This document shows positions 17,209 to 32,834 of a stretch of 62,433 nt of DNA, in pieces (position 1 is the stretch's first letter; every line of letters starts with the position of its first letter). The notes below the pieces were generated by a model. The model had not been told where the DNA came from and did not search any database. It saw only the letters and a program-made list of their open reading frames with translations. Source of the stretch: Patescibacteria group bacterium (GTDB lineage: Bacteria; Patescibacteriota; Patescibacteriia; 2-12-FULL-60-25); the NCBI GenBank assembly GCA_029210915.1, contig JARGGJ010000008.1, positions 1 through 62,433 on the forward strand. Direction: 5' to 3'. A program made the translations under genes and the position numbers.

Positions 17209-17667
17209 TTACAAATGGGCTTCGGCCTCCGAGACCTCGGCATAACAATGCCGAGGATCGTTTTTTATTAAGGCTGTTACTTTATCTTCTATTATCGCAA
17301 AATCATCTTTGGGATATGTTCTTATTTTTCGTATTAATCTTTTACTGCTGATTGTTCTAATTTGCGATAAGATAACTGCGTAGTTTTTACCATTAAAATT
17401 ATAGTGATGATAGTAAATCCCCTCTTTTACTTTGCTGGTTTGCGGTAAAATCCACATTGTATGTTTACCGAATTTTCTGATTACAAGTACGGGGCGTTCA
17501 AAATTGTCATTTTTTCCGTCCTGCTCGAATCCGATATTTGCCCCCAGATGAGCCCACCAAATTTCTCTTTCATTAAAATACACACATTTTTCATGTGGTT
17601 TTAAATATATTCGAACTTTGATTTTTGTCCAAGCAATAAAACGAGCAAGATATTCCGGTGTTGTCAT
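17209..17667 (-). CDS. PemK/MazF-like toxin (mRNA interferase fold)
   Basis: 152 residues. The core EIWWAHLGANIGFEQDGKN, then RPVLVIRKFGKHTMWILP and a late SQIRTISSKRL, follow the PemK/MazF plan (EIW...G...RP.LV...Q.RT.S..RL). Such toxins cut mRNA and are normally held by an antitoxin encoded upstream, but none is visible here: the N-terminal extension starts directly at a leaderless promoter. The gene sits between two 58-bp direct repeats 640 bp apart, like a cassette. Confidence 0.8.
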   Translation of the reverse strand: MTTPEYLARFIAWTKIKVRIYLKPHEKCVYFNEREIWWAHLGANIGFEQDGKNDNFERPVLVIRKFGKHTMWILPQTSKVKEGIYYHHYNFNGKNYAVILSQIRTISSKRLIRKIRTYPKDDFAIIEDKVTALIKNDPRHCYAEVSEAEAHL

Positions 17668-17673
17668 TGATTG

Positions 17674-17679
17674 ATTATA
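17674..17679 (-). promoter_or_regulatory. -10 box of leaderless toxin gene
   Basis: On the minus strand TATAAT ends 6 nt before the ATG at 17667, so the transcript would begin at the start codon. Confidence 0.6.
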
Positions 17680-17710
17680 TCCTGAAAGACGAGTTTTGTT
17701 TATGAATATT

Positions 17711-17768
17711 TAAGCAACTCGCTTAGATTCATAGATTCTCAAGTTTTCAGTTTTGTTCGCACTACGAC
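17711..17768. repeat. 58-bp direct repeat, right copy
   Basis: Right copy of the repeat at 17071-17128, with 57 of 58 positions the same. Its left hairpin arm (TATGAATATT) has decayed relative to the left copy. Confidence 0.8.
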
Positions 17769-17774
17769 TAAGTA

Positions 17775-17996
17775 CTACGACTTAGTCCTATAGTTTTTCA
17801 TTAAGTCGTAGATTGCGGCGAGTGTGAAAACGGTTTGCAGGATGATAAAAATTGTATTTTTTAGATACAGGCTATAAGTTGCCAAGAAGATTCCGCCGAT
17901 TATGTATAGAATGTTTTGGTTACGGCGGTTTTTGGTGATGACACCAAAGGTGATGAGCAATAAGCCAATGGCGCCCATGATTGTGAAGATGTTCAT
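17775..17996 (-). CDS. Small three-helix membrane protein
   Basis: 73 residues, three hydrophobic segments (about 5-21, 29-44, 48-64), ending in a basic tail, KNYRTKS. It resembles the short membrane module seen in the N-terminal part of lipid-A-disaccharide synthase-like proteins (LAB_N type), a weak match. Its stop codon lies at the edge of the direct repeat that bounds the toxin cassette. Confidence 0.55.
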   Translation of the reverse strand: MNIFTIMGAIGLLLITFGVITKNRRNQNILYIIGGIFLATYSLYLKNTIFIILQTVFTLAAIYDLMKNYRTKS

Positions 17997-18002
17997 GATT
18001 AC

Positions 18003-18072
18003 ATTGTAGTATCTTGTATCTAGTATCTAGCAGTCTGCGAGATACAAGATACTAGTCGCAAGATACCGGTAT
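18003..18072. repeat. AGTATCTTGTATCTAG palindrome
   Basis: AGTATCTTGTATCT pairs with AGATACAAGATACT around GTATCTAGCAGTCTGCG. The same words flank the four-helix-bundle gene at 44104-44195 and 44582-44668. Confidence 0.6.
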
Positions 18073-18075
18073 GGT

Positions 18076-18699
18076 TTAGTTAGTGGGGGTTGGATCGTTT
18101 TCTTTAATTCTTTTTCGGCAGGATTGCTCTACTTCAAATGCATTTGGAATATCTGAAATGTAAATAATATCCGGGACATATCTATCGGGGCCGTTTTTTT
18201 GGCTAACCATTTTGCCGGATCTTAATCGTAGTGCGATATTACCTTTTTGTTCATCCCCGCTTACCTCGATGTCACCCGAAAATTGTTCCCAATCGATGGA
18301 TCGAAGGTTTCCTTTGCGATATTGTATTAAACGCAGTGGAGTGCCAATAAAGTAACCACCTTTTTTTAAAGTTTTATAAATTCCCCCTGATAGCATACCG
18401 ATACCAATTGTTATAAAAATTCCAATAACCAAAGCAGGTATCATGATAGGACCCAAATTATCACGGCTGGCAACTGTTGGAACGCCGTTTGTTTCAAAGT
18501 GGACTTCGTTTCCAAGGAACAGAGGCCCTAAAAAGGCGATCACGAAGACGCTCGTAAAAGCGAGCCAAACCATTCCAAACGCAATTAAAGATAATGATTT
18601 TTTAAGCGGTTCTGCTCGGCCTGCTTTAACAGCAAAATCTTGATTTTCGGATCCCAGTGCAGATACCAGTTCCTGAGGTAATGATGAATTTCCGAGCAT
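18076..18699 (-). CDS. Two-helix membrane protein, unknown
   Basis: 207 residues. Hydrophobic segments near 36-60 and 84-106, followed by a soluble beta-rich C-terminal half (TPLRLIQYRKGNLRSIDWEQFSG and following) that has the look of a PH-like membrane-associated domain. Function unknown. A TATAAT box lies 14 nt before the ATG on the minus strand, implying a very short leader. Confidence 0.55.
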   Translation of the reverse strand: MLGNSSLPQELVSALGSENQDFAVKAGRAEPLKKSLSLIAFGMVWLAFTSVFVIAFLGPLFLGNEVHFETNGVPTVASRDNLGPIMIPALVIGIFITIGIGMLSGGIYKTLKKGGYFIGTPLRLIQYRKGNLRSIDWEQFSGDIEVSGDEQKGNIALRLRSGKMVSQKNGPDRYVPDIIYISDIPNAFEVEQSCRKRIKENDPTPTN

Positions 18700-18767
18700 A
18701 ATTTTGTTTTGCTATTATATACTTAAAATGCAATTTTGTAATCTTTATATTAGCTGATGATCGCTCT

Positions 18768-18806
18768 AGGACTAGGACTAGGACTAGGACTAAGTACTAG
18801 GACTAA
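18768..18806. repeat. AGGACT short tandem repeat
   Basis: Four tandem CTAGGA/AGGACT units and a related CTAAGTACTAGGACTAA run. The last codons and stop of the glycosyltransferase gene lie inside it. Confidence 0.6.
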
Positions 18807-20052
18807 TAATAGTTTGATACAGTTCCTCTGTAAAATTTTCTTGCTCCATTTGTTTCGCGATTGTTTCTGCCTGTTCTTTGTATGAAGCGTTGTTAACCAG
18901 GTCTAAGATTTTGGGTTCTAGGTTTGTTGCTGTGATTTTTCCGACTTCAATACCTTTTGGGCCGGCTCCTAATTTGTTGATGGTTTTATTCCAAATGTAT
19001 TGGTCGATAATATGAGGGATTATCAAAGATGCGCAACCGTTTTTTAGGGCTGCGTGAGTTGTGCCTGTTCCGCCGTGGTGAATAACGGCGTACATTTTTG
19101 GGAGAATGTAATCGTAGGGTATTAGGTTTACGAAATGGAGGAGATCCTTGTTATATTCTTTGGGTTCTTCTAACCCGCCGCAGGCAGTATTTATGATTGC
19201 CGGGATATTGTGCTTTTGCAGGATGTCTAAAATTATTTTCGTCTTTTCTGCGGGCTTGGGGTTTGTCATGCTGCCAAAGGTGACGAGGATTATTTTGTTA
19301 TGACGTTTTAGGAATTGATTCAGCTCTTCACTTGGTTGCCAGTTTATAGCTTTGTTTCGTTCGTGATAGCCGAGTACTTGTATGTTACTTGGCCAGTAAC
19401 TTGGTCTTTGGAAAAGTGATGGGGAGATTGTGTAAATTGCACCGTTGGCTGAACGGGCTTTTTTAATTTGCTTACGGGTAATGTCTTTAATATTTATCCA
19501 TTTCGCAGATGCTTTGATTGTTTCTATCAAACCAAAATCCGCAACTATGTAAGTGAGCTTGTTTAGCAACGTTCCATAATTATCGCCTAAGCCAAGGTGT
19601 GCGTGATCCTTTACATAATTGAGATAAGGCACAGGGTTTATTTGTATGGCTTTGCCTGGGTGTTTAGTGCTCCAGACAACCGGGTAAAGAGCTTTTATGT
19701 GATGCAAAACTAAATCAGGATTTTCGCGGTCGATTACCTCGCGTTGTTTGTTGGCTAGTTCTTTGTTGACCTCGAGTGAACTCTTGGCGAGCTTGAATGT
19801 TGCAATAAACTTCTTTATTTTTGACCCACCACCTCCCATAACTGTTTTGCCAAGATCGCTAAATAACATTTCAATAAATTTTGATCCTAAAGATGCAAAC
19901 TCTAAGCCTGCATCTTCTGCAAGGCTTCTGAATTGCTCCGGGAATGCACAGATAACATGGTGTCCTTTTTTCTTTAACATTTCCCCTATCGTCAAAAAAG
20001 GCTCCATGTCGCCACGGGATCCGACTGATGCGAGGATGATTTTTTTGGGCAT
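18790..20052 (-). CDS. GT1-family glycosyltransferase (sterol/UDP-glucosyl type)
   Basis: 420 residues with the GT-B fold of the MGT/UGT group. The N-terminal domain begins IILASVGSRGDMEPFLTIGE, typical of sterol 3-beta-glucosyltransferases, and the nucleotide-sugar site is HHGGTGTTHAALKNG...PHIIDQYIWNKTINKLGAGP. It would move a sugar from an NDP donor to a lipid or small molecule; the acceptor is unknown. The last residues (ISPST) are encoded by a short tandem repeat, indicating the end of the gene was rewritten by the repeat. Confidence 0.85.
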   Translation of the reverse strand: MPKKIILASVGSRGDMEPFLTIGEMLKKKGHHVICAFPEQFRSLAEDAGLEFASLGSKFIEMLFSDLGKTVMGGGGSKIKKFIATFKLAKSSLEVNKELANKQREVIDRENPDLVLHHIKALYPVVWSTKHPGKAIQINPVPYLNYVKDHAHLGLGDNYGTLLNKLTYIVADFGLIETIKASAKWINIKDITRKQIKKARSANGAIYTISPSLFQRPSYWPSNIQVLGYHERNKAINWQPSEELNQFLKRHNKIILVTFGSMTNPKPAEKTKIILDILQKHNIPAIINTACGGLEEPKEYNKDLLHFVNLIPYDYILPKMYAVIHHGGTGTTHAALKNGCASLIIPHIIDQYIWNKTINKLGAGPKGIEVGKITATNLEPKILDLVNNASYKEQAETIAKQMEQENFTEELYQTIISPST

Positions 20053-20085
20053 AAGGCAAGTAATTTAATTTTAAAACCACCTTTT

Positions 20086-20271
20086 TTAGGTGGCTTCGTG
20101 CTGTAACTTGTTAATGTTTTTTATCAGCTTCCTTTGATCTTCGTTGGCTTTTCGGGCAGCCTTTTCGAATACTTGTATTTTTTCTTTATCAGATGCATAT
20201 AAGAAAAAATCAGCAAAACCATCGGTATGCCTCTTTGTTGTTTTTTTCTTAAAGATATTGGTTAATTTCAT
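20086..20271 (-). CDS. Small basic/helical protein, unknown
   Basis: 61 residues: a basic N-terminus (MKLTNIFKKKTTKRHTDGF) and a helical remainder with EKIQVFEKAARKANEDQRKLI. The composition is like small antitoxins, but no toxin follows it. Its ATG overlaps the TGA of an upstream fragment (ATGA), so the two were once translated together. A hairpin GCCACC...GGTGGT followed by T-rich sequence overlaps its stop and could terminate it. Confidence 0.5.
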   Translation of the reverse strand: MKLTNIFKKKTTKRHTDGFADFFLYASDKEKIQVFEKAARKANEDQRKLIKNINKLQHEAT

Positions 20272-20412
20272 ATTAATTCCTTCAGATCTTTCTCAGTGTA
20301 TCGATTTTGGGTTAAATCGTCAATAAAAAACTTGCCTTCACTATTTGTGATGACTGCGCCGGGCGGAGATGAGTATTTGTATATGACTAATGCAGTTGCG
20401 TGTAGGGAGCAT
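20268..20412 (-). pseudogene. 5'-truncated ORF with no usable start
   Basis: The frame reads ALVIYKYSSPPGAVITNSEG, then KFFIDDLTQNRYTEKDLKELI and a stop that overlaps the next ATG, but no ATG, GTG or TTG lies between the upstream in-frame stop and this sequence. The missing 5' end coincides with the promoter of the plus-strand ncRNA. A DNA stretch of about 42 bp around GGCGCAGTCATCA is also found, frameshifted, at 23990-24031. It looks like a gene remnant; a non-standard start cannot be excluded. Confidence 0.4.
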
Positions 20413-20440
20413 TGACATTGTGGATAAAAGATGTTATCTT
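20412..20440 (+). promoter_or_regulatory. Strong sigma-70-type promoter of ncRNA
   Basis: Perfect TTGACA at 20412-20417, a 17-bp spacer and TATCTT at 20435-20440. The predicted start is about A20447. Confidence 0.65.
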
Positions 20441-20446
20441 ATAACT

Positions 20447-20544
20447 ACAAAGACCTGTATTCTGAACTGTCACCGGATGGTGGCGTGGCTGGGACAACCA
20501 GCATAGGAACGTGGTCGGGAAAGCCCTTTACAGGTGCTTTTTTT
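20447..20544 (+). ncRNA. Unknown structured ncRNA, about 98 nt
   Basis: A self-contained RNA gene by layout: a strong promoter just upstream, closing stem 20453-20459 (ACCTGTA) with 20529-20535 (TACAGGT), then GC and a T7 run at 20538-20544. Inside are hairpins CACC-GGAT-GGTG (20471-20482) and GCTGG-GACAA-CCAGC (20488-20502), and a 3' part GTGGTCGGGAAAGCCC. No open frame and no downstream plus-strand gene, so it is not a leader. It lacks the GGAAG-AGCAGC core of SRP RNA and matches no riboswitch I know. Confidence 0.6.
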
Positions 20545-20595
20545 GTTAACGAAAGTACCATTCGTCTTCGATATGATTCTGGATAATGGATTTAT

Positions 20596-20850
20596 TTACA
20601 ACTCTTTATTTATTAGTTCCCATGTCACCTCTTCTTTTGTTATATTTTCGATTTCTTTTATAAGATAATACAAAACTTCTTTTGGTATTTTGGGGTGATA
20701 TGGGATGGTGATACTTTTGTGATTTTTATATTCGGCTAATGCGTGGCTGCCATCACCCCCTGTTTTATCAATGATAAAACCTAAGCGTGCCAAAGCTCTT
20801 AAAAATCTATTATATTTTATATGCCCCGGAAGTGCACTAAGCGGCGGCAT
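20596..20850 (-). CDS. hicA: HicA-like toxin
   Basis: 84 residues. The double-stranded-RNA-binding-like HicA fold is indicated by FLRALARLGFIIDKTGGDGSHALAEY (catalytic His in GSH), then KSITIPYHPKIPKEVLYYLIKEI. HicA is an mRNA interferase. The gene starts inside the 3' end of the upstream antitoxin-like gene (14-bp overlap), the usual translational coupling. Confidence 0.85.
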   Translation of the reverse strand: MPPLSALPGHIKYNRFLRALARLGFIIDKTGGDGSHALAEYKNHKSITIPYHPKIPKEVLYYLIKEIENITKEEVTWELINKEL

Positions 20851-21163
20851 ATTCCAACGCTTCTCCTTGACGTGTTATGGCTGCTTCTTCTTTATAAGCA
20901 CTGGGAATTTTAAAAGATGTAAGTATGGCGTCTTTAATCTTATCGTCCAGTTCTTCCATGCTTTTAGCTGATGCTATTATACTGCCATAATTGTAATTTT
21001 GACTTATTGCAATATTAAATTCACCTTGTTTTTCGTATTTAAATTCGATGTTTCCGTAGTTCCTAAAATATCTTTGTAAATCAACCAAGCCCATAGGAAC
21101 GAATTCCAGTGAGTTGTTTAGTTGTTTGGTTAACCAGTCTTTGGTGATTTTTACGATATTCAT
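20837..21163 (-). CDS. hicB: HicB-like antitoxin
   Basis: 108 residues from the ATG at 21163 (an upstream GTG at 21193 is less likely). The middle, FNIAISQNYNYGSIIASAKSMEELDDKIKDAIL, has the HicB pattern of a strand, a sensitive loop and a helix that blocks HicA. The N-terminal part (KDWLTKQLNNSLEFVPMG) is longer than in standard HicB, and there is no obvious DNA-binding C-terminus. The call depends partly on its coupling to hicA. Confidence 0.65.
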   Translation of the reverse strand: MNIVKITKDWLTKQLNNSLEFVPMGLVDLQRYFRNYGNIEFKYEKQGEFNIAISQNYNYGSIIASAKSMEELDDKIKDAILTSFKIPSAYKEEAAITRQGEALEYAAA

Positions 21164-21377
21164 ATTGATATTAGTAAGATACCAATTAATCACAAAAAAT
21201 AGAAGATGTCTAGGGTGAAATGATTAATTTTGCTTAAATAAAGCGTTTTTCAGTTCAGATTTAGGTCTAAGTTATTTCTGGTGTCCATTTTTTGAATTGT
21301 TGCAATTTTTGCAACAATTGGTTTTCTTTCCATTAATTTCCATTAGGCCTCACAGCAAATCTTCTAATTCCTTATGT

Positions 21378-21857
21378 CTATTCATTATTGTTTAATATAA
21401 AATCTCTTAGCCAATTTGCATCAGTTGTATTCAGTAGTAACGAACCATCCGCTTTTCCGGGCGTATCATGATTATGATGTCCCAATTGTTGTCCAGGTGA
21501 TGCTGTCCAAATATTGATGGATGAGATTCCAGCTAAAGATTGTAAAGGACCTTTTAAGATATTTATATTTTGAATTGAATGATACGCGATGGTTTTTGAC
21601 TTTTTAAACAAGATACCCTTGTTTATTGTTATTTTATCTTCTTCAACGTTGTAAGAAATATTAAAATGAGATATTGCATAACAAATGGCTATTGGTATAC
21701 CTATAAAAATAAGAATACTAGCAAAGGTTTGTAACCATTCATAAAGCCCGCTTAAAATTATGGGTGATGTAAAAAGCAAAATAAAAAAAATTAGCCGAAG
21801 ATAGCGATATAATAATGAACTTATAGGTAGGCCAATCGTTTGATTAAGATTGATCAT
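21378..21857 (-). CDS. Bacterial PH-domain (bPH2/DUF304) membrane protein
   Basis: 159 residues: two hydrophobic segments (about 18-40 and 46-66) followed by a bPH2-type domain with NISYNVEEDKITINKGILFKK and SIQNINILKGPLQSLAGISSINIWTAS, matching the YdbS/YdbT pattern (R/Q.QNI....G.L....G...I...TAS). It ends with a His-rich loop, GHHNHD. Membrane-associated, function unknown. Confidence 0.75.
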   Translation of the reverse strand: MINLNQTIGLPISSLLYRYLRLIFFILLFTSPIILSGLYEWLQTFASILIFIGIPIAICYAISHFNISYNVEEDKITINKGILFKKSKTIAYHSIQNINILKGPLQSLAGISSINIWTASPGQQLGHHNHDTPGKADGSLLLNTTDANWLRDFILNNNE

Positions 21858-21934
21858 AATTATACTTCAAAAAATATTAAAATTAGATAATTATATTATA
21901 TCATCTTTTAACAATATTTAACTCAACTACAATA

Positions 21935-22876
21935 TTATATTTTTCCAATTATCCCATCCTCCTCCAAGCGATTCATTAAACGACAGGTTTGCGCAAAGCC
22001 GATGTATAGGTGTTTTTGTATTAATGAGGCGGAGATTTTTTTGTGCTTTTTGGCAATTTTTTTTACTTCTTCGTATAGCTCTTCCTCATCTCGCAATTGG
22101 CAGGGTTGTGATTTATCAGAATACTTAAAACAAACACAACCATCCGTAGTATTGGTTTTTTGTTTTGCATTATGCATCATGCATTTTGCATTAATGTTTG
22201 TATAAACCACATCCTTCCTCTCCACCACAACCTTCCAGCCTAAGCGCTTTGCTGTGGCGTAGAGTTTGCTGTTTGGGTTAAAGCAGATTGGCTGTTCTAC
22301 GAGTTTTAAAAAAGATATATCCCCTTCCGAATCGCCGACTCCAATGGATGATTTTAGGGTGAGATTTTCTTTGGCTACCGCCCGGGTTAGGATTTTGGCT
22401 TTGTCGGAGATTAGATCCAGATATTCTGTTTTGCCGGTGAACTTGCCTTTGGCATCCGTTTCATGGATACGGCCGTAAACTTTATCGAAGCCAAGGGTTT
22501 TGGCAAATGGGGCTACTATGTCGAGGGGTGAGTGGGATATGGCAAGCAAGTAGTAACCTTTCTTTTGCAGATCCCCCACCAAACCACGAGTATAACGATA
22601 AACGCGTTTGCCGTTTGCCTTTACAACAGAGCGCGCCACACGCGTAAAATCGGCCTTGGAGACGCCTTTTATCTTAGATTCGAAGGCGCGTACAACTGCC
22701 ATAATATAATCATCATACGAGCCCTCACGGTTTAGCCATTTGGAGTGTGCTTTATTATATTCCTCCGCCACACTCGCAGGGAAAATGCCCTCACGAATAA
22801 GCGCGTCGGTTAGCTCTATCAGCAAGCTGGAGCGAAAGATTGTACCGTCGATGTCGAAGATGGCGAGTTTTTTCAT
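21935..22876 (-). CDS. HAD phosphatase fused to FtsK-gamma-like domain
   Basis: 313 residues. Residues 1-210 form a HAD-IB hydrolase (SerB-like): nucleophile motif DIDGT at 8-12 (D8, D10), motif II SHS near 114-116 and GDSEGD at 181-186. Residues about 265-313, LYEEVKKIAKKHKKISASLI onward to LEEDGIIGKI, match the winged-helix gamma domain of FtsK that reads KOPS DNA, an odd partner for a small-molecule phosphatase. Residues about 227-240 (NINAKCMMHNAK) are encoded by an intergenic repeat word. The start is at 22876; the longer frame upstream only translates repeat. Confidence 0.85.
   Translation of the reverse strand: MKKLAIFDIDGTIFRSSLLIELTDALIREGIFPASVAEEYNKAHSKWLNREGSYDDYIMAVVRAFESKIKGVSKADFTRVARSVVKANGKRVYRYTRGLVGDLQKKGYYLLAISHSPLDIVAPFAKTLGFDKVYGRIHETDAKGKFTGKTEYLDLISDKAKILTRAVAKENLTLKSSIGVGDSEGDISFLKLVEQPICFNPNSKLYATAKRLGWKVVVERKDVVYTNINAKCMMHNAKQKTNTTDGCVCFKYSDKSQPCQLRDEEELYEEVKKIAKKHKKISASLIQKHLYIGFAQTCRLMNRLEEDGIIGKI
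22165..22195. repeat. GCATTATGCATCATGCA repeat word inside a gene
   Basis: This stretch, in frame within the HAD gene, is the same word as in the dispersed repeats at 11687, 15958 and 51264-51352. It lies in the linker between the HAD and FtsK-gamma-like domains. Confidence 0.6.
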
Positions 22877-22884
22877 AACTATAT

Positions 22885-22955
22885 CGTACACCCCTCCTTT
22901 CGCGAAAGGAAGGGGTACATCGTCGAGCTGAGCTCGTTTACACAACGTACAAATT
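22885..22955. repeat. Palindromes upstream of the HAD gene
   Basis: ACCCCTCCTTTC-GCG-AAAGGAAGGGGT and the palindrome CGAGCTGAGCTCG, followed by CAACGTACAA words. Related CGTAC words occur at 23934-23962, and CATCGAGCTCAGCTCGAC at 58285-58302. Confidence 0.5.
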
Positions 22956-22972
22956 TTAAACTTGCATGTTAG

Positions 22973-23923
22973 TTATTTACTTAATAACATTAAAATCAAC
23001 CCTATCATACGTTCTTTTTCTTTGGGATTGCTTTCTGCGACCAGAAGCGTTAGTGCCGTTAAAGCCTCCGGGGTTAATCGGTTTCTATTTAGTAGGTTTG
23101 CCTTTTTCAAAAACCAAATAAAAGCAAAAGCACCGGATCGTTTATTTCCATCCACGAATGGGTGATTCTTTACGATAAAATACAGCAAATGCGCGGCTTT
23201 ATCCTCGAGCGCAGGGTAAAGTTCGCGTCCGTTGAATGATTGAAACACACTGCTGAAAATCCCCGTTAAAGCACCTTCTGAACGTTCTTGCCCGAATAAA
23301 TCACCAGCCTCTTTTTTGGCTTTCAATGTTTGCTTGAGCTTACCTAGCGCCGCGAATATCTGATCGGCGGTGACCTTGACTTGCTTTTTTGTAGCGCCTT
23401 TTTTTGGCAGAGTCTCTTTATCGTAAGCATCCAAAGAGAGCCATGTGGATGCAAACATCTTTACCAACTCTAAAGCATCCTCGGCACCCACCTGTTCTCC
23501 TGCTGGCAATAGGCTTTTGACATCTTCGACGGCTTTCAAAAAAGCATCATAATTGTTTACCAGCTGTTTTTTATTGATCGTATAGCCCAGTAAAATATGT
23601 TCGCGAAGGGTTTTAGTAGCCCATTTTCTAAACTCGATAGCAACTCTTGAATTGGTTCTGTACCCTATCGCCAATATAACATCTAAAGTGTACAGGGCTA
23701 CCGGTTTATCGGAATTTGCAATATGCATTTTTTGCATATTGCTTTTTTCATTAATTTCCCGATCCTTAAAAATATTCTTGATATGGCGCGAAACAACGGA
23801 CTGATCGACTCCAAATAGTTTAACAATTTGTGCTTGGCTTGCCCATAATGTCTCTTTTTTATAATCCCCTTTAAATTCAATGGATCCGGATTTACCTTGA
23901 TAGATTATCATCTCATTTTTCAT
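22973..23923 (-). CDS. RhuM-domain/Fic fusion protein
   Basis: 316 residues. The N-terminal half is a RhuM (virulence-type) domain: EMIIYQGKSGSIEF, LWASQAQIVKLFGVDQSVVSRHI, ALYTLDVILAIGYRTNS and WATKTLREHILLGYTINKKQ. The C-terminal half is a Fic/Doc domain with the catalytic motif HPFVDGNKRSG at 254-264. Fic enzymes attach AMP or similar groups to target proteins; the RhuM part probably binds DNA or the target. No inhibitory antitoxin gene is adjacent. The start is taken at 23923 (MKNEMIIYQ). A possible abortive-infection effector. Confidence 0.85.
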   Translation of the reverse strand: MKNEMIIYQGKSGSIEFKGDYKKETLWASQAQIVKLFGVDQSVVSRHIKNIFKDREINEKSNMQKMHIANSDKPVALYTLDVILAIGYRTNSRVAIEFRKWATKTLREHILLGYTINKKQLVNNYDAFLKAVEDVKSLLPAGEQVGAEDALELVKMFASTWLSLDAYDKETLPKKGATKKQVKVTADQIFAALGKLKQTLKAKKEAGDLFGQERSEGALTGIFSSVFQSFNGRELYPALEDKAAHLLYFIVKNHPFVDGNKRSGAFAFIWFLKKANLLNRNRLTPEALTALTLLVAESNPKEKERMIGLILMLLSK

Positions 23924-23989
23924 AACTAACATCGTACATCGTACGGCGTACTTCGTACAAATTTAAATTTTAATAGTTTAATTGCCATC

Positions 23990-24031
23990 ATTGTTTTTGA
24001 TGACTGCGCCGGCGAAGATGAGGATGGGAGG
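23990..24031 (-). pseudogene. Short gene remnant related to 20320-20362
   Basis: On the minus strand this reads CTCATCTTCGCCGGCGCAGT and continues in close parallel to the truncated ORF at 20268-20412, with one base missing that shifts the frame. It directly follows the Mrr-like gene. It can only encode about 18 residues ([18 protein letters not shown]). Confidence 0.35.
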
Positions 24032-24033
24032 CA

Positions 24034-24726
24034 TTACTTCGTCGTATATTTACATTTCGGGTAATTAGAGCAACCTTTGAACTCGCCAAATTTTCCGTTT
24101 CGTTTTACTAGTGTTCCCCCACATTTCGGGCAATTACTATTGTTATTTTCCGCGATTGTAACAGGTGTGCTATTTTTTTTTGCCATTTTTATATGGCGAA
24201 TAAGATCGAAACCGTCGATTAGTTCGATGGGTTTATCCTCGGCAAATTTTTCTGCTTCAAGTGTAAATGTATTGGTGGTTATAATGTAACCCTTTCCATT
24301 AGCTAATTTATTGGCAAGTGCTCCGTAAAAATCCCGGACAGCACTTACGGGTACTTTGTTGGTTATATATTTTTTGCATTGAATGTAATTAGTTATACCG
24401 TTTTTTGTAGCAATTACATCAATCCCTCCATCATGTGATTTGCCAACCGCATCGGCTTTATAACCTAATTTTGTAAATAAGTGCGCTATATATTCTTCGA
24501 ATTCAGTTGGTTTTAATCCTCTTAACCATTGTAGTAGTTCTTGATCGGTTCGCCAACTCTTTCCTTTGTTGAATTTGATGTCATTATCGATTTTTTTCTT
24601 CAAAAGTTCAAAAAGTGTAATGGCGATAAAAAAGGCGCCCATTAATAAAAATATTGGCCAAGCCATGGAAAGGCTTGAAAAAATGATTTTTAACATTTGC
24701 CAAAAATCGAGTTGTATGAGGTTCAT
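24034..24726 (-). CDS. Membrane-anchored Mrr-like restriction endonuclease
   Basis: 230 residues: one or two N-terminal hydrophobic segments (about 12-42), an Mrr catalytic domain (about 66-170) with [19 protein letters not shown], the nuclease motif [12 protein letters not shown] followed by YIQCKKY (D...QxK), and a C-terminal topoisomerase-type zinc finger [20 protein letters not shown] then [12 protein letters not shown]. Mrr enzymes attack methylated or foreign DNA. It is the last gene of the defence block, but a TATAAT 7 nt before its ATG gives it its own leaderless promoter. Confidence 0.88.
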
Positions 24727-24733
24727 GAAGCTT

Positions 24734-24739
24734 ATTATA
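24734..24739 (-). promoter_or_regulatory. -10 box of leaderless mrr-like gene
   Basis: TATAAT on the minus strand ends 7 nt before the ATG at 24726, inside the 24-bp gap after the previous gene. Confidence 0.55.
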
Positions 24740-24750
24740 ACACAATTCCC

Positions 24751-24978
24751 TTAGTTATCTGATATCGAAAAATACTCCCCCTTCTCACTCTTTAGTTCGA
24801 ATGCCTGCACTTCCGTATAATCCGAATCGCGTATCCAATCATTTTCCTGTAATAGATTTTCAAAAGCTTGGCGTGAATTTTCTCCGTTTGTGATGCCGAG
24901 GAATTGGAGGTTTTCGATGTCTTCAAGATTGGGTGCTTGGGTTAAGCCTTCTTGGGTGATGAAGATGAATGGGGGCAT
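24751..24978 (-). CDS. Small acidic protein in defence block, unknown
   Basis: 75 residues, not recognised: MPPFIFITQEGLTQAPNLED at the start, then LQFLGITNGENSRQAFENLL and a C-terminal AFELKSEKGEYFSISDN. Acidic overall. It lies 11 bp after the previous small gene and 24 bp before the Mrr-like gene, so it belongs to the block by position. A role as immunity or DNA-mimic protein would fit the acidity but is only a guess. Confidence 0.55.
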   Translation of the reverse strand: MPPFIFITQEGLTQAPNLEDIENLQFLGITNGENSRQAFENLLQENDWIRDSDYTEVQAFELKSEKGEYFSISDN

Positions 24979-24989
24979 AAAATTATTGG

Positions 24990-25181
24990 TTACACGTACC
25001 AGAGCTGAAACTGCGGGTATGTGTTGTTATCTTTAAAATTCAAATCTTTGTCATCATTCCAAACCAACTCTGTGAAATTTTCCAAATCTTCACTGTAACC
25101 GCGACACATAACTTTAAGTCGATTAAATGGATTGATGTATAAGATAATTTTTGCAAATGTTGGCAGTAAGTTGATTTCCAT
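24990..25181 (-). CDS. Small protein after dpnI-like gene, unknown
   Basis: 63 residues from the ATG at 25181 (MEINLLPTFAKIILYINPFN...); a longer frame up to 25217 would overlap the DpnI gene. It carries a YSEDLENFTELVWNDDKDL acidic stretch and ends with aromatics (YPQFQLWYV). It begins 4 bp after the dpnI-like stop, so the two are almost certainly cotranslated. I do not recognise it. Confidence 0.5.
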   Translation of the reverse strand: MEINLLPTFAKIILYINPFNRLKVMCRGYSEDLENFTELVWNDDKDLNFKDNNTYPQFQLWYV

Positions 25182-25185
25182 ATAT

Positions 25186-25956
25186 TTAGGAGAGTCGATA
25201 GTGACCCCGAGATACAAATTTTAAAAATCCTTTATCGCGTAAAATTTGTAACTGTTGTCTTAATTTATCTTTGATGTGCTGGTTATTTGGGTATTGCTTG
25301 CTTAATTCTTTTTCAAAGGAATAAATTTCATCAAGATTAAATTCTGACTTCCCAAGTTTATCGATAATCCGCATAGTATCGAGGAGCCAGCCTTTAGCGG
25401 AATTATCTTTTTCTTGGCTTAAAAACTCTGTTTTTTGCCAACTTGTTATTACTTTTTGCTTTGGCGTGTCAATGCCGTTTTTTACGTAATAAATCCTTCC
25501 AGCTTCTGGAATATCTTTTAAGATAATATTGCATCCAACCCAGCCGGCTCTTTTTGCGGTTAGTGGTAAGGGTTTACGTTTTTCGATTATTTTTGGGATG
25601 AAAAAATGTTTTGGGATTACGAGAAAATTAATCACTTCGTATTTACGGCTGTCGTAGCTTAAAAAGAAAAAGTTGGGGTTGTTGTTACTATTCAAGCGTT
25701 CGATCATGGTTCTGTATGCACCATCTACAATTTTGTTGCCAACATAATCTTTTTTACTTTTAAGCTCATAATCTTCTTTGCAATTCGAACAATAAAAATC
25801 TGCAACCGGTTTATTGCATTCATAATTATCAATACTTTTATTACCGCAATTTGGGCAGTATATCTGATGATCAACCCAATTTTCTGTGAGTACTCTTATT
25901 TTTTGCGAATTACTTTTATAATCAACCGCAAGTTTTGTATTAAAATGCAGATTCAT
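25186..25956 (-). CDS. DpnI-like methyl-dependent restriction endonuclease
   Basis: 256 residues, strikingly close to pneumococcal DpnI as I remember it: same length, same beginning (MNLHFN...YKSNSQK), zinc-binding cysteines C34, C37, C56 and C59, and catalytic D53, E64 and K66 in PVADFYC...YELKSKK. The C-terminal winged helix is kept (IKDKLRQQLQILRDKGFLKF). DpnI cuts GATC only when the adenine is methylated. It forms an operon with a PD-(D/E)xK protein upstream (8 bp) and a small protein downstream (4 bp). High similarity to a Firmicute enzyme suggests transfer. Confidence 0.95.
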   Translation of the reverse strand: MNLHFNTKLAVDYKSNSQKIRVLTENWVDHQIYCPNCGNKSIDNYECNKPVADFYCSNCKEDYELKSKKDYVGNKIVDGAYRTMIERLNSNNNPNFFFLSYDSRKYEVINFLVIPKHFFIPKIIEKRKPLPLTAKRAGWVGCNIILKDIPEAGRIYYVKNGIDTPKQKVITSWQKTEFLSQEKDNSAKGWLLDTMRIIDKLGKSEFNLDEIYSFEKELSKQYPNNQHIKDKLRQQLQILRDKGFLKFVSRGHYRLS

Positions 25957-25964
25957 AACTTAAA

Positions 25965-26435
25965 TCAAACAATAAACTCATTAAGCAATTTCGTATATTG
26001 AGCTTGTAATTGTTTTGAAACGCGCGAGTGCGTTAACTCGGGTATGTCGCCTTTATTCTCTACGATATCGCAGACTTTGGCGAAGAAAAAGCCTTTTGGT
26101 GTTGCTAGGAATAACCAAGATGGTTTCCACGATAGGAGCATCCTTTTTGCAGTTGGTAATATGTACGTTTTATCGAGCCGCCTCATGTATTTCACCTCTA
26201 CCAAATGAACTTCATGTGTGTTGTTATCGATAACCACAAAATCAGGCGCGCGCCTGATTATTTCCATGGCTTCTTTGGCATTAATTGTATCTTGCCTAAT
26301 TGCTAATTCAGGTAAAATATTTTCGTATCCAAAAGAGAGCACAGTGAAGCCACCGGCATCACGGAGCATTTGTTCAAATAACGTTTCTGCAATTTTGCCT
26401 TTGACTAGATTTTTAGAGAAATCTTTATTGTTCAT
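25965..26435 (-). CDS. PD-(D/E)xK nuclease-like protein
   Basis: 156 residues. The stretch APDFVVIDNNTHEVHLVEVK (about 83-102) has the spacing of a PD-(D/E)xK active site, with D and ExK on neighbouring strands; an upstream helix carries a conserved-looking E (AETLFEQMLRD). It could be a Holliday-junction- or VRR-like nuclease or a specificity partner for DpnI. It lies 9 bp from the DUF262-HNH gene and 8 bp from the DpnI gene. Confidence 0.6.
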   Translation of the reverse strand: MNNKDFSKNLVKGKIAETLFEQMLRDAGGFTVLSFGYENILPELAIRQDTINAKEAMEIIRRAPDFVVIDNNTHEVHLVEVKYMRRLDKTYILPTAKRMLLSWKPSWLFLATPKGFFFAKVCDIVENKGDIPELTHSRVSKQLQAQYTKLLNEFIV

Positions 26436-26444
26436 ATTATATAA

Positions 26445-27848
26445 TTAATTTATGATTTCTTTACTTGACTTAGTTCTATTATGTGGCCGGCATAAAACCT
26501 GTGCATTCGATATGTCTGATTGGCCACCTTTTACATGAGCTAATATGTGATCTGCTTCATATTCAGTCCAGCTTACTCTAGCTTCTTTTTCTGATTTGCT
26601 TTCACGTAGGCATTCTTGACACAACCCCTTGTCTCTACGATATATTGAAATTCTTTCGGCTTCGTTGAAGCTACGTTTTTCATCCTTCAAGATCATCTTG
26701 TGGCCACATTTTATTACATATTCAAAAAATAATTGTCTTAATATTTGGGTACGTGTCTCCGTATTGTTTTTGTCCATTTGTCTACTGGAAGAAAAATGTA
26801 AAATTTCTCCGTCATCATCATTTGGGTCAGACCAATGTGGATAAAAGTCTTCAATTAGAAAGTTTTTAAACATTGTCATTTCATCATTACCAAAAGCGTA
26901 AAATTTTCTTAAATGCCTTAGTAATAGATAAAAAGAAATGACCACATAATCCCGACTCAGTTCTTTGAGCCCAGTGGCTTTATCTAGAATAGGATCATCT
27001 TTAAAGATATTATAGAAATTATCTAAATTTGAAAGTACGGCTTTCGCCTCTGGTTCTTTTTCGTATGAATAGTTACCGATTCCATTTGAGACTCTAGATC
27101 CATCAATGAATTTTGCCACGGCAATATCTTTTAGCTCTGTAGCATTACCTTCTTTCTCTAGCATTAAGAAACGTGTTAGCAAAAGCAGATGTTGCATGCG
27201 TGTATTGTCGCTTTTATATATTTTAAAGAATTTGTGTTTATTTAAATTTTTATCTACTGGTTTGTAAGTATCGTAATCAAATGTAATATCATCCGCATAC
27301 TTTACGACAAAATTACGTACCAAGCTCGCTAAACGTGCATGGGCAATTTCCATAAAATTTAATGATTCACCCTGCTGTAAGCGCCAAAAAATTTCTGTAG
27401 CTATTTTTTGATGATCTGGATTCTTTGGATCGTCTATACCTTTTACGATGTCTGCCTCATACTGCAATTCTTTATCAATAAAACGTTTGAATTCACTGTC
27501 CAATTCTTCATATTTTTTATCAGGTAATTCTTCATGTATGTCATTTAAACTTTTAGGCAGTTTAATTTTTCCTTCAAAAAATTCCTGGACGACAATAATG
27601 CGTTGTTGCCCGTCAACGACCTCGTTAACCGTTTTGTCATCATCTAGCCGAACTTCTCGAATTACGATTTTAGGAATGTAATAGCGGCGGAATAGACTAT
27701 CCAGTAATGCCTGTTTTTTACCTTTGCTCCAGACACTTTTGCGCTGGTAAGGTGGGCGTGTGACAAATTCATCCTTGTATTGATAAAAATCAAAAATAGG
27801 GATGGGTTTAAGGTTGATGGTGTATTCTGGTTTTGGGTTAAAAGGCAT
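26445..27848 (-). CDS. DUF262-HNH protein (GmrSD/SspE-type)
   Basis: 467 residues. An N-terminal DUF262 domain with the ParB-like motif VVDGQQR (DGQQR at 79-83), a long helical middle, and a C-terminal HNH nuclease: zinc cysteines CQEC at 410-413, catalytic ADH at 432-434, and NAQVLCRPHN. DUF262 proteins such as GmrSD and SspE use NTP hydrolysis to sense modified DNA; here both activities are in one chain with a classic HNH rather than DUF1524. Member of the compact defence block. Confidence 0.85.
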   Translation of the reverse strand: MPFNPKPEYTINLKPIPIFDFYQYKDEFVTRPPYQRKSVWSKGKKQALLDSLFRRYYIPKIVIREVRLDDDKTVNEVVDGQQRIIVVQEFFEGKIKLPKSLNDIHEELPDKKYEELDSEFKRFIDKELQYEADIVKGIDDPKNPDHQKIATEIFWRLQQGESLNFMEIAHARLASLVRNFVVKYADDITFDYDTYKPVDKNLNKHKFFKIYKSDNTRMQHLLLLTRFLMLEKEGNATELKDIAVAKFIDGSRVSNGIGNYSYEKEPEAKAVLSNLDNFYNIFKDDPILDKATGLKELSRDYVVISFYLLLRHLRKFYAFGNDEMTMFKNFLIEDFYPHWSDPNDDDGEILHFSSSRQMDKNNTETRTQILRQLFFEYVIKCGHKMILKDEKRSFNEAERISIYRRDKGLCQECLRESKSEKEARVSWTEYEADHILAHVKGGQSDISNAQVLCRPHNRTKSSKEIIN

Positions 27849-27896
27849 AGTATAATCGTGTTAAAAAATTTTATAATTTAGTAATAGATTTTTATA

Positions 27897-29738
27897 TTAC
27901 AGTTTCAATTGATATTTATTAAGTAAAAATTTATTAATATCTTGCTTAGTAAGATTGCTTAATAGGAATTTTTTTTCCTTAATATCCAATTCTAAAATTC
28001 CAAAATTCTTTACATAGTTTTTTGCGTACGAAAAATATCCTGCTGAATAGGGTTTGCTCGTATTCACCATATAATACTCAAATACGCTGGATTCTAATAT
28101 TAGTTTCAAAATTTTTAGTTCAGTGGGTGTTTCATCAAATATAGCATAACCACAATAAATCAACATATCTTTTTGGTCAGTGAAAACAAAGTGTGGTTTC
28201 TTTGCCATGTAAGGGAAAAGTAGCTTAAAACCATTGTCACTCAACGCCTGTGTTCTTCCGAATGCATACCAAGCTCCGTAATCTCCATTACCCTTATCTC
28301 TCTTTTGTAAATCCACCTTGTTGTCTAAAAGATACCCGTATGCTTTTGGGAATTTTTTTTGGAAGTATTTTTCATCTATCAACGATAAAGGATTGACTCC
28401 ATTTGTGTAGGGATAAATTAATTTCTCTTTTACTGATTCGATTTCATGTTCGTATTTTAGAATGTTCGGCTTTATAATGTCTCGACAAATTGCTTTTTCA
28501 ATTTCGTATTGCTTGCCATTGTGAGTAATCACGAAATAATTTTCCGTTTCTGCTACGGGCTTAAAAATATAGGTGTCGTTGCTAAGTGTTGCAATCCCAT
28601 TTCTGATTTTATACGATGCTCCTAAAGATTTCCCCGCTGACTCAATTCGTTTAATGTTCTCAATTATTCGTTTGTCATTCAGCAACCAACCTCTTTGAGG
28701 ATCCAAATCTTGGTACGGAATCTTACTGAATAGTTTTATTCCATTGCCAGCAAGTGTTTTGCTGTTTTCCTTCTTGAAAGAAATTGTTGTTGTTTGATTT
28801 TTTGAAATCAAACAAATACAAGTGTAAGCTAATTTGCCTTCAAATATTTTTTCGTGTCCAAAATCAATTATACTCAAATCAAATTTATTGTGCTGCAAAT
28901 ATTTTCTCAATTCTCTTGCATTTACACTCCTGTAAAATGAATTTACAGTTATGTAACCTAACACACCATTTTCATTTAGTTGCTTCAACCCGATTTCAAA
29001 AAAAGGAATGTATAAATCAGGATTCCCTGCTTTCGTTACTGCCCAATTTGACAAAAGATTTTTTGAAGCTATATCAATGTTTTTTGCTCTCACATAAGGC
29101 GGATTACCCACAATCAAATCAAATCCGTCATTATCTTTTACTTTCTCTTCGTGTTTGAACCAGTCAAACGAAAGTGAGTTTGCACAATGAAGGTTAAACA
29201 CGAACTCTTTTCTGTCCTCCCCGCTTGCCAATGCCAAAAGTGAAAGAAGAATTTTTGTTCTCTTGATACTACTTTCGCTTATGTCTAAACCAAAAATGTT
29301 GTCTTTGAATATTTGAAAAAGTGTTTTGTTTGTTTCTGCTTTTAATTTGTTTGCAATTGTAAAAAGAAATGCACCACACCCACAAGCTATGTCAGCCGCT
29401 AAAACTGCTTGGTGTTCCTTCTGTATTTTTTTTAGAGAATGTTCAACAATAAAATTCTTGATGTAGTTGGGAGTATAAACTGCTCCATTGTTGACTTTCT
29501 CTCTTGTTGGAATTGCTAATTCAAATGCTTCAATTAAATCGTCAAAACCAAATTTGAAAGTTGAATAAACAAGGTATTTGTGAAGTGGTGAGTTTTCTGA
29601 AATCAATAATGATTTTATCAAAGCATTGTTCTTTACATTGATTGAATTTGCTTTGACAAATACAGAAACGATAATCTTGTTCAATGAAGATTCATCCTCA
29701 TTGAACTGGTTAATGATATATTTGAATTCTTTCTGCAT
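27897..29738 (-). CDS. N6-adenine DNA methyltransferase (Eco57I class)
   Basis: 613 residues. SAM-binding motif I, DIACGCGAF, at 116-124, preceded by NGAVYTPNYI; catalytic motif IV NPPY at 212-215; then LGYITVNSFYRS and a C-terminal target-recognition region with KLLFPYMAKKPHFVFTD. No nuclease domain is visible, so it acts as a solitary methyltransferase or as partner of a separate nuclease in the block. It starts 6 bp after the type IIG-like gene ends. Confidence 0.9.
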   Translation of the reverse strand: MQKEFKYIINQFNEDESSLNKIIVSVFVKANSINVKNNALIKSLLISENSPLHKYLVYSTFKFGFDDLIEAFELAIPTREKVNNGAVYTPNYIKNFIVEHSLKKIQKEHQAVLAADIACGCGAFLFTIANKLKAETNKTLFQIFKDNIFGLDISESSIKRTKILLSLLALASGEDRKEFVFNLHCANSLSFDWFKHEEKVKDNDGFDLIVGNPPYVRAKNIDIASKNLLSNWAVTKAGNPDLYIPFFEIGLKQLNENGVLGYITVNSFYRSVNARELRKYLQHNKFDLSIIDFGHEKIFEGKLAYTCICLISKNQTTTISFKKENSKTLAGNGIKLFSKIPYQDLDPQRGWLLNDKRIIENIKRIESAGKSLGASYKIRNGIATLSNDTYIFKPVAETENYFVITHNGKQYEIEKAICRDIIKPNILKYEHEIESVKEKLIYPYTNGVNPLSLIDEKYFQKKFPKAYGYLLDNKVDLQKRDKGNGDYGAWYAFGRTQALSDNGFKLLFPYMAKKPHFVFTDQKDMLIYCGYAIFDETPTELKILKLILESSVFEYYMVNTSKPYSAGYFSYAKNYVKNFGILELDIKEKKFLLSNLTKQDINKFLLNKYQLKL

Positions 29739-29744
29739 AGTTTA

Positions 29745-32700
29745 TTAGTTTAGAATTTCTATTCTGTCAACATTTCTTCCTCTGTCATTGAAGAATGTTT
29801 TTTCGTCATCGGTCAGGCCGTAAAACTGATAACACAATTCATCCAACAAATTCCATTGCGCAATAAGTAATCTTGTTAATGCTCTCTTTTGAGTTGGTGA
29901 CGATGTTTTGTATTTTTTTTGCAAAACACCAATTAGTTTTGCTTTAATTGCTAATTGTGCTCTTAATTTTGTGTTATCGGTAAAATTTTGTACTGGAAAA
30001 GGAACTGGTTCAAGAAATTGTTTATTGAATTTGAAGTAGCCGTTTGTCTGTGGATTCGCTATTGATTTTGCTAAAACCGAATAAATTGTTGAGTTGATAA
30101 TTGCTGATAAAGCATACAAAGTATTTTCATCTTTTTCAGGTGTGTCAATGAAAAAAACATTGGCATTATCGCAATAAGTTTTGTCTGAAAAAGTAAGCGA
30201 AGCGAAGGTATCCAGTGCAGTCATCGGAATTAATATCTTTGGATAAGTTGCATTGTGATTTTGCACCCGTGTGTAAAGATGCCACTTCGCTGCTTCGCTA
30301 CAAGTTTCTACATTCTGCTGAATAGTTTTCTTATTCCTTCCTAAATAATCTGCGGCTAAAGGGAAACGCTTTTTAAAATCAGTGAAAGAAATTTCTGTTA
30401 CGACACCTTCAACTACATCATAAGGAAAAATTACAAACACATCTGCGTTGTCATTTCTGTAATGGTAAAAATTTTCATTGCAGATTAGCGGTCTGCAAGC
30501 GGCTAATTCAATTTCAAAATCTTCTTCAATATGAGATTTACCTCTGATAATTCCATTTTTAACAGAATTCGGTCTTATGTGATATGCTTTATCCCAAAGA
30601 ACTTGAATACCAACTCGGACTTTTGCATAGTCGCCCAAACAACCAAACTCTAATAATCTTGTTTTTATCTCAATTAGTTCGTTGTCGTCAAAGCTCCAGG
30701 GGTTTGCATTGACGGCTGTTGCCGGCAGAATGGAATATTGTCCGGGTGCAACATCAGGTGTTTGAGCTTCTCTTAATTGTGAAGCAAGTGTTTCAGCATT
30801 ACCTTTGAAAAGTTTAAAACTAAAATTTTCTGGTGAAGATTTATCCAAGAGCAACAACGCAACATAAGTAATTCTGTCTTTGAAAATTGACGTTGTATCA
30901 AAATCAATAACTGATGAAAGATAATTTGAGGTGCTAATCATCTCTCTTATTTTTTTTCCGTATTCAGTTTTGAAAAATCTTTTCTGAACAATGAATCCAA
31001 GTCGTCCAGTAGGGTTTAATAAACCGATTCCTCTTTCAATAAAGGGAATTGCTAAATCAATTTTGCCATTCTTAGAAGAAGGGAATCTCTCCTTGATGTA
31101 AAGGTGCATGTAAGGCAAATCAACATTGTAGTTCTTTACTTCAACATAGGGTGGATTGCCAATGATATAATCAAAGCCACCTTTCTGTTCAAAGATTTCA
31201 TTAAAACCATGTTCTCCTTTCCAATCGAAAATATTAGTCTTTAGGAGTTCTTCCTCGTTGTCTTCAACAGAAGGGAAGATCTCCAAAATATCTGATTCAA
31301 CTAATGAGTTGCCACATCGTATATTGTTGCCAATCCCATTTAGAATTTTACTGCCAAAAATTCCGATTTCATTATACGATTCAAGATATTCAGAAGCATC
31401 AACAATTTTTAAAGACAAAGACATCTTTGTAACTTCTACAGCTTCTGGGTCAATATCAACGCCAAAGATGCAATTGTCCATAATAGCCTTCTTACCTAAA
31501 ATATTTACAATTACATCTGTAGTAGTTTTGACAAAGTATTTCTGAAAATCTGGATGATTAGATTCAAGATATAATTCTCTAAAAACTGCTTCTATATAGT
31601 CAAATGCTTCAATGGCAAAAACGCCACTCCCACAAGCAATGTCTAAAATTTTATGAGAGAAAATATTTTCAATACCTAAATCATGAAGTTTACTTTCCCG
31701 AATTGTTCGCCTGATAATCTCCTGAACAAGGTATTGAGGTGTACTAACCGCACCTTTTGTTTTTAGATACTCGCTCTTGATTTCGTCTTTTACTTCATTA
31801 CCCTCAATCAAAAGTTTTTTTGAAAGAAATATCTCATAGATATCGCTTAAAAGTTTTGTTGGTATAACATCAAAACGATAAGGAGAGGGGTAATAAAGAT
31901 ATTGAATCAACGAATCAAAAACCCCGTTGGAGATTTTGATTTCGTGAATCTCTTTTATTCGGTCAAATAAATGCCCATCATAGTGTTTGAAGAAATTAAA
32001 GTAGGACGACTTTTTAAAAGCATTCCAAAATCCTTTATCACGGAACGAAAGTAAAAGGCCTTCTTCTTCAATTTTTCGTGCCTCGCAAACACGAATGAAT
32101 AAAACTCTATTGATAATGATTTGAACAATGTAGCTGAGGTTATCAGAATTATCGCCAATGAATTTAGGATTGTTTTTAAAAATATCGGCTGCCAAAGCTA
32201 AACGGAAGTCAGATAATTGTTGGGCAAATTTTAAATCAGGTGTAATTTTCTCAATGTATTTATTGTCCTTTAAGGAAGCAGAATAAATCTCATTGAGTTT
32301 TCCTTTGTAGATATTCTCCTTTAGTAGATGTGTTTCTAGAACATCGTAGTTTGCAACATAATCTTCAATGCCAAAATACAATCTTCCTAATGTCACGTCT
32401 TGTCCTTGAACTGGTGTGTATGTGCAATCGTAGATTGCAAATTCTTCAAAGTTTGAAATGAATGCACATGGAGCTAAGATTGACCAGCCGTATGATTTAA
32501 TTTGAAATGCTGCTTCTGCATCAGCGTTGATTTTTACAGAAATATCTTTTGCATCAAGGAATGTCAATTTCTCCTTTGCTATTCTGAAAGTGTAATCGGG
32601 TCGTGTATTTTGTGAACTGATTAATTTTAATTTTTCTTTTTCTACTTTTGATAAAACTTTTTCTTGTAAAATTTGAGAAGTGTCTCTTACATCCCAATCA

Positions 32701-32834
32701 AATATTGCCAATAGTTCATTCAGCCAGGTTCTGATTGTCTCCTCTGAGGTCAAATCAAGTTTGCCTGCTTTTTTAAACTTGTTATATTCAGCGATAAGAT
32801 CAGTTAGTTTTTGTTTTCTTTGTTGTGAATTCAT
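29745..32834 (-). CDS. Type IIG-like restriction-methylation enzyme
   Basis: 1029 residues. The N-terminal nuclease domain carries RPDYTF (D80) and FLDAKD (D94, K96), a PD-(D/E)xK arrangement; helical linker; methyltransferase core with motif I DIACGSGVF at 398-406 and NPPY at 560-563; and a C-terminal target-recognition region of TaqI-like type (ILPATAVNANPW...). One polypeptide would both cut and methylate. It is the first gene of the block; a TATAAA box ends 8 nt before its ATG. Confidence 0.92.
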   Translation of the reverse strand: MNSQQRKQKLTDLIAEYNKFKKAGKLDLTSEETIRTWLNELLAIFDWDVRDTSQILQEKVLSKVEKEKLKLISSQNTRPDYTFRIAKEKLTFLDAKDISVKINADAEAAFQIKSYGWSILAPCAFISNFEEFAIYDCTYTPVQGQDVTLGRLYFGIEDYVANYDVLETHLLKENIYKGKLNEIYSASLKDNKYIEKITPDLKFAQQLSDFRLALAADIFKNNPKFIGDNSDNLSYIVQIIINRVLFIRVCEARKIEEEGLLLSFRDKGFWNAFKKSSYFNFFKHYDGHLFDRIKEIHEIKISNGVFDSLIQYLYYPSPYRFDVIPTKLLSDIYEIFLSKKLLIEGNEVKDEIKSEYLKTKGAVSTPQYLVQEIIRRTIRESKLHDLGIENIFSHKILDIACGSGVFAIEAFDYIEAVFRELYLESNHPDFQKYFVKTTTDVIVNILGKKAIMDNCIFGVDIDPEAVEVTKMSLSLKIVDASEYLESYNEIGIFGSKILNGIGNNIRCGNSLVESDILEIFPSVEDNEEELLKTNIFDWKGEHGFNEIFEQKGGFDYIIGNPPYVEVKNYNVDLPYMHLYIKERFPSSKNGKIDLAIPFIERGIGLLNPTGRLGFIVQKRFFKTEYGKKIREMISTSNYLSSVIDFDTTSIFKDRITYVALLLLDKSSPENFSFKLFKGNAETLASQLREAQTPDVAPGQYSILPATAVNANPWSFDDNELIEIKTRLLEFGCLGDYAKVRVGIQVLWDKAYHIRPNSVKNGIIRGKSHIEEDFEIELAACRPLICNENFYHYRNDNADVFVIFPYDVVEGVVTEISFTDFKKRFPLAADYLGRNKKTIQQNVETCSEAAKWHLYTRVQNHNATYPKILIPMTALDTFASLTFSDKTYCDNANVFFIDTPEKDENTLYALSAIINSTIYSVLAKSIANPQTNGYFKFNKQFLEPVPFPVQNFTDNTKLRAQLAIKAKLIGVLQKKYKTSSPTQKRALTRLLIAQWNLLDELCYQFYGLTDDEKTFFNDRGRNVDRIEILN

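Follow-up and report, generated by a model that had tools for sequence, protein, structure and literature searches.

A probable DUF3800-IX RNA orphaned from its partner nuclease gene in a patescibacterial defence island

The AbiF nuclease (Abi_2/AbiD/F) is neutralised by a non-coding RNA antitoxin, RCd22, an AbiF motif RNA (PMC12373285). In the type III toxin-antitoxin systems (ToxIN, CptIN, TenpIN), a protein nuclease likewise has a small structured RNA as its partner. The AbiF motif RNA and a further class, DUF3800-IX, reportedly come from the same 2017 discovery set. DUF3800 proteins linked to CRISPR loci, which occur with Cas12a2 and at some VI-F and V-A2 loci (PMC10910872; PMC12669027), belong to the same superfamily as the DUF3800-IX partner and have an RNase H-type fold. 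DUF3800-IX RNA differs from the RNAs of those loci in being no crRNA, and inspection of neighbourhoods, short of a systematic search, revealed neither a CRISPR array nor a Cas protein. For the DUF3800-associated RNA families of Rfam, the literature found assigns no function. The locus described here very probably holds an intact member of DUF3800-IX that has been orphaned from its nuclease partner. The class itself is already catalogued in Rfam, and the useful addition is the orphan pattern, which is lopsided.

The window, meaning the whole stretch of DNA analysed, comprises 62,433 nucleotides of a Patescibacteria group bacterium (contig JARGGJ010000008.1, positions 1 to 62,433). Searched in full with the Rfam 15 covariance models, it has a sole above-threshold match, to RF02968 (DUF3800-IX), at 20452-20520 on the plus strand (54.5 bits, E 4.8e-9; curated gathering cut-off 36.8 bits). 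This core covers model positions 1-67 of 67 and has no second copy in the 1.455-Mb genome. The preliminary description had assigned the RNA to an unknown class outside common models and had named a significant match to a known class as grounds against that assignment; the Rfam search returned such a match. Its broader claim of an independently transcribed, structured, non-coding RNA is borne out by the Rfam match, by covariation and by the promoter.

The RNA has its own sigma-70-type promoter and terminator. The promoter (20412-20440, plus strand) consists of TTGACA (20412-20417), a 17-nt spacer and TATCTT (20435-20440), as first reported, with TG preceding the -10 box. Scanning for promoters alone gives a chance-level result in this region (5 found, 4.7 expected). 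Across 53 DUF3800-IX RNA loci, a promoter with at most 3 mismatches of 12 stands at the same fixed distance in 74% of relatives versus 8% of shuffles, the -10 box usually ending 11-12 nt upstream of the closing stem. The intrinsic terminator (20517-20544, plus strand) is a separate hairpin running into T7 (20538-20544), and the T-run is similarly placed in most type A relatives. The transcript is expected to start at about 20447 and to end at 20544, giving an RNA of about 98 nt. The earlier statement that the stretch has no open frame does not hold literally, since a 51-codon ATG frame (20431-20586, plus strand) crosses the RNA. A coding gene over the RNA was considered and rejected: the ATG lies upstream of where transcription is expected to begin, and just 6 of 30 relatives keep the frame open.

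The minimum free energy of the window RNA is -34.8 kcal/mol (z -2.54; 4 of 200 dinucleotide shuffles as good). Taken alone, this z-score gives modest support, and the Rfam match and covariation constitute the strong evidence. Where a 7-bp closing stem had been proposed, the fold has an irregular closing stem (20452-20463 paired with 20506-20516) made up of a 4-bp outer stem and an irregular inner stem; the two inner hairpins and the T7 run of the same proposal are both found. The first hairpin (20468-20485, plus strand; UGUCACC-GGAU-GGUGGCG, 20468-20474 with 20479-20485) is the most conserved part, and the second (20488-20502, plus strand; GCUGG/CCAGC, 20488-20492 with 20498-20502) shows many compensatory changes in relatives. 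An RNAalifold consensus from 33 type A relatives comprises the outer stem, the inner closing stem and both hairpins, and at 12 of its 19 predicted pairs both sides have changed with the pair kept in at least one sequence. The sequence of the first hairpin is near-invariant, with free covariation in the outer stem and in the second hairpin. The window RNA has the consensus structure of RF02968, with closing stem, two inner hairpins and the conserved junction (GAAC on one side, UAGG on the other), and it carries the same conserved GAACUGUC, GCGU and UAGG stretches. From this pattern of conservation we infer that DUF3800-IX is probably a protein-recognised RNA.

DUF3800-IX RNA is detected in 10 of 96 relatives and in 17 of 380 genomes of the phylum, a patchiness that speaks against the housekeeping role first considered. 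The exact core pattern occurs on 31 named contigs, mostly of Patescibacteria lineages, with some from other phyla on short contigs that are possibly misbinned. Because loci found by pattern are biased to type A, only the Rfam-based genome sample was used for rates. Contig edges cut short several of the comparison loci. The usual partner of the RNA is a convergent DUF3800 gene, present in most loci with a stop codon that falls 0-65 nt past the RNA. Subtype A combines the RNA start TACAAAG with the protein tail ..EDEWxFK, and subtype B the RNA start GGAATT with the tail ..VQIWPK. Across 28 pairs, the distances between RNAs and those between proteins are correlated (Mantel rho 0.845, 0 of 2000 permutations, p <= 0.0005), also within subtypes (0.76 in A, 0.82 in B), so that the RNA and the DUF3800 protein are inherited as a unit. 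The RNAs nearest to that of the window lie in other lineages of the phylum (97% identity in genome G158, Peregrinibacteria; 96% in a Buchananbacteria and an Azambacteria contig) while G001, a genome of the window's own genus, has a type B RNA, a distribution that suggests horizontal transfer. A phage or plasmid origin was considered and rejected: phage and plasmid collections held no similar DNA at blastn sensitivity, and the exact core pattern was not found in IMG/VR.

An RNase HII-like fold is predicted for the partner. For an AF2 model built from 14 type A proteins (pLDDT 93.4, pTM 0.91), the top nine Foldseek matches are all RNase HII, drawn from several archaea (probability 1.00, E 7.6e-5 to 1e-3, TM 0.52-0.60), in agreement with the RNase H-type fold published for DUF3800 (PMC10910872). 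The likeness is structural only (TM ~0.57), hhalign of the partner against genuine RNase HII having found no sequence homology. Acids invariant in the 14 partners are D6, D7, D10, E57, D128 and D173. In PADLOC, related profiles stand among the phage-defence candidates (PDC-M04A).

The window locus departs from the rest of RF02968 in that the name-giving gene is missing except for its last 15 codons. An intact convergent DUF3800 gene, and with it a complete two-gene module, is absent. The remnant, KSIIQNHIEDEWYFR and a stop codon, lies antisense at 20546-20593 (minus strand), between the RNA and hicA and at the distance from the RNA expected for the family. It scores 35.6 against 18 family tails, within the range of true members (31-50), and by the same scoring the highest value among the window's other 6334 stop-terminated 15-mers is 4.6. 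Neither the Pfam profile nor the family's own profile detects a DUF3800 protein in the window genome, an assembly of 49 contigs and 98.2% completeness whose missing DNA could hold such a gene.

A hicA-like toxin gene (20596-20850, minus strand; PF07927, E 1.1e-5, 25.9 bits, just below the cut-off of 27) stands where the DUF3800 body would be, its stop codon (20596-20598) directly past the remnant. It is followed by a hicB-like gene (20837-21193, minus strand), so called by position only and without a Pfam family. On the left of the RNA, a reading frame without a start codon (20268-20408, minus strand) ends where the promoter begins and forms the left edge of the RNA unit; this truncated frame and the adjoining HicA had both been recognised at the outset. 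Two overlapping minus-strand frames of no known family occupy 20086-20408, one of 46 residues (the start-less one) and one of 61. No relatives of the 46-residue frame were found in 56 other genomes searched, and an empty-site comparison gave no syntenic relative, in the genomes searched, of the truncated left frame or of the bPH_2 gene. The limits of the RNA unit are therefore drawn from the truncated frame and from the DUF3800 tail. Given the surviving 15-codon tail and the start-less frame at the promoter, the RNA unit has outlived the partner gene, the body of which is lost in the window, with hicBA now in its place.

The RNA had also been proposed as the partner of a nearby toxin or defence gene. 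A defence-type protein partner is indeed probable; HicBA in that role is not sustained. Regulation of HicBA by the RNA might be suspected since hicA is convergent and ends 75 nt behind it. However, the hicB homologues in genomes G001 and G013 do not adjoin this RNA, HicBA is present at no other inspected orphan RNA locus, and the gap between RNA and hicA is filled by the DUF3800 remnant. Such regulation is extremely improbable, and the HicBA pair is a chance neighbour.

The surroundings form a defence island (17209-32834) that includes a PemK/MazF toxin (17209-17667), HicA (20596-20850), a RhuM/Fic protein (22973-23932), an Mrr-type restriction enzyme (24034-24726), DpnI (25186-25956) and a GmrSD_N/HNH protein (26445-27848). 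Two large frames (27897-29738 and 29745-32834) look DNA methylase-like by eye. An unusual combination of a HAD-type hydrolase and an FtsK-gamma-like DNA-binding domain (PF12710, PF09397) occurs in one frame at 21935-22945.

DUF3800 tails also persist beside orphan RNAs in G088, in G069 (with an internal stop), in G219 and at locus L101, and the leftover tails vary from about 1 to 19 codons. Among the products of genes now found behind orphan RNAs are HicA (window), a weak PIN-domain match (L101), Fic (G219) and a DUF1016 nuclease (locus L113). Genomes G158 and G171, of the same genus, share a common locus with 94% identity over the flanking 7 kb. From the DUF3800 stop through terminator and RNA, 106 nt are identical in both, and the switch falls exactly at the stop codon, beyond which G158 has the DUF3800 gene and G171 another gene. 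The replacement in G171 (locus L068, 7500-7976 of G171:C7) encodes a 158-residue protein of no clear family (best Pfam match LPD3, E 0.018).

Is the element mainly a DNA site, an attC-like recombination or integration hotspot at which cargo (DUF3800, HicA, PIN, Fic) is swapped? Breakpoints a short way past the terminator at several loci (window, G171, L101) would fit, as would the other defence or toxin-type genes behind orphan RNAs, the position of the G114 RNA within a type ISP restriction-modification gene and the two copies around the DUF3800 gene in G158 and G113. However, the fixed-distance promoter in most copies, the compensatory changes and the co-inheritance with one protein family argue for a transcribed RNA, and DUF3800 tails of such differing length argue against one precise site, so that this reading is very unlikely. 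In G114 (locus L066, 7680-7990 of G114:C28), the RNA that interrupts the type ISP gene is without a nuclease, and uninterrupted homologues of the gene read straight over the joint. The G158 copies (locus L073, 7145-8051 of G158:C6) are on the same strand and flank a single DUF3800 gene, one being of type A and one of type B; those in G113 (locus L074, G113:C7) are also on the same strand around one DUF3800 gene.

Loss is not distributed evenly between the two components. Among the 380 genomes sampled, each of the 14 strong DUF3800-IX nuclease genes is accompanied by a convergent structured RNA. Thirteen of these RNAs belong to RF02968, and a divergent one, found in G141, is missed by Rfam. Conversely, 6 of 19 classifiable RNAs are without a nuclease gene. 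The asymmetry is small, with a Fisher p of 0.027, or 0.20 if the divergent G141 RNA is not counted. Since the nuclease is not seen without a structured RNA while a lone RNA is tolerated, DUF3800-IX RNA may restrain the nuclease, as this lopsided orphan pattern, the RNase HII fold and the AbiF precedent together suggest. We regard such restraint as a real possibility, if somewhat short of an even chance. In a complete module, the RNA would bind the DUF3800 nuclease in trans and hold it in check, either in the manner of an RNA antitoxin or as the holding RNA of a phage-triggered ribonucleoprotein. In the window genome, the RNA would then have no task, or would guard the cell against DUF3800 modules that arrive from outside.

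Alternatively, the RNA may be an activating cofactor or a guide of the DUF3800 nuclease and no inhibitor, orphan RNAs being dead leftovers. This is conceivable, at a chance only a little below that of restraint, with the remainder left to other roles. The association of RNase H-fold DUF3800 proteins with the CRISPR loci cited above favours it, as does the tendency of orphan RNAs to decay, clear in G069 and G030b. However, no variable, guide-like end is present in the RNA, whose predicted transcript runs from about 5 nt before the closing stem to the terminator. Moreover, a protein harmless without its cofactor predicts that lone genes of either kind are equally frequent, whereas the lone RNA is common and the lone nuclease is not seen.

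Under the preferred explanation, restraint of the nuclease, DUF3800-IX would act as AbiF and its RNA do, both pairing a structured RNA with a defence nuclease. Binding and neutralisation are shown for AbiF only, and the two differ in the nuclease (HEPN fold versus RNase HII-like), in the fold of the RNA and in layout: the AbiF RNA lies upstream, is co-transcribed and has a duplicated motif, whereas the DUF3800-IX RNA is single and convergent. In contrast to type III toxin-antitoxin systems, DUF3800-IX has no tandem RNA repeats and is not co-transcribed with its nuclease, whose fold is unrelated; the layout found is a single RNA with, in relatives, a convergent gene. It is more doubtful whether DUF3800-IX RNAs as a class are convergently transcribed and serve as antitoxins, or as holding RNAs, for a defence nuclease of RNase HII-like fold that is often lost with the RNA retained. 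If so, they would belong to a toxin-antitoxin layout unlike types I and III: other toxin or defence genes often take over the site of the nuclease gene and the protective RNA is kept, as in the window.

Whether solitary RNAs still work bears on the same question. Orphan RNAs have lower bit scores than paired ones (median 50.4 versus 56.0, p 0.003), which suggests that many are decaying. The window RNA is without visible decay, a state that fits recent loss of the partner as well as continued use. Its selection and continued function, for example in shielding the cell from DUF3800 modules that enter it, would accord with its intact promoter, stems and terminator and its 54.5 bits, and with the orphan in G171, which matches the paired copy at every position of RNA and terminator, against about 94% identity in the flanks. 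However, partner loss may just be recent, other orphan RNAs are decaying, and likeness alone cannot date the loss, the RNAs being 87-93% alike while partner proteins are 59-68% identical. Continued function in the window is thus rather unlikely.

Taken alone, the window gives a modest result: an RNA that remains, within a defence island, from a broken RNA-nuclease module. Together with its relatives, it provides a lead that can be tested: a nuclease and its cognate RNA, of which the RNA persists the longer. Should the RNA restrain the nuclease, the family would be explained and would join AbiF among RNA-controlled defence nucleases, with consequences for the Cas12a2-associated DUF3800 proteins. 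The divergent RNA of G141 (locus L135, about 1360-1480, G141:C2 just below 277260) has a promoter, a closing stem, two inner hairpins and a T-run, and is convergent with a DUF3800-IX gene. With a fold z of -2.63 and no Rfam match, it may belong to a further DUF3800 RNA class.
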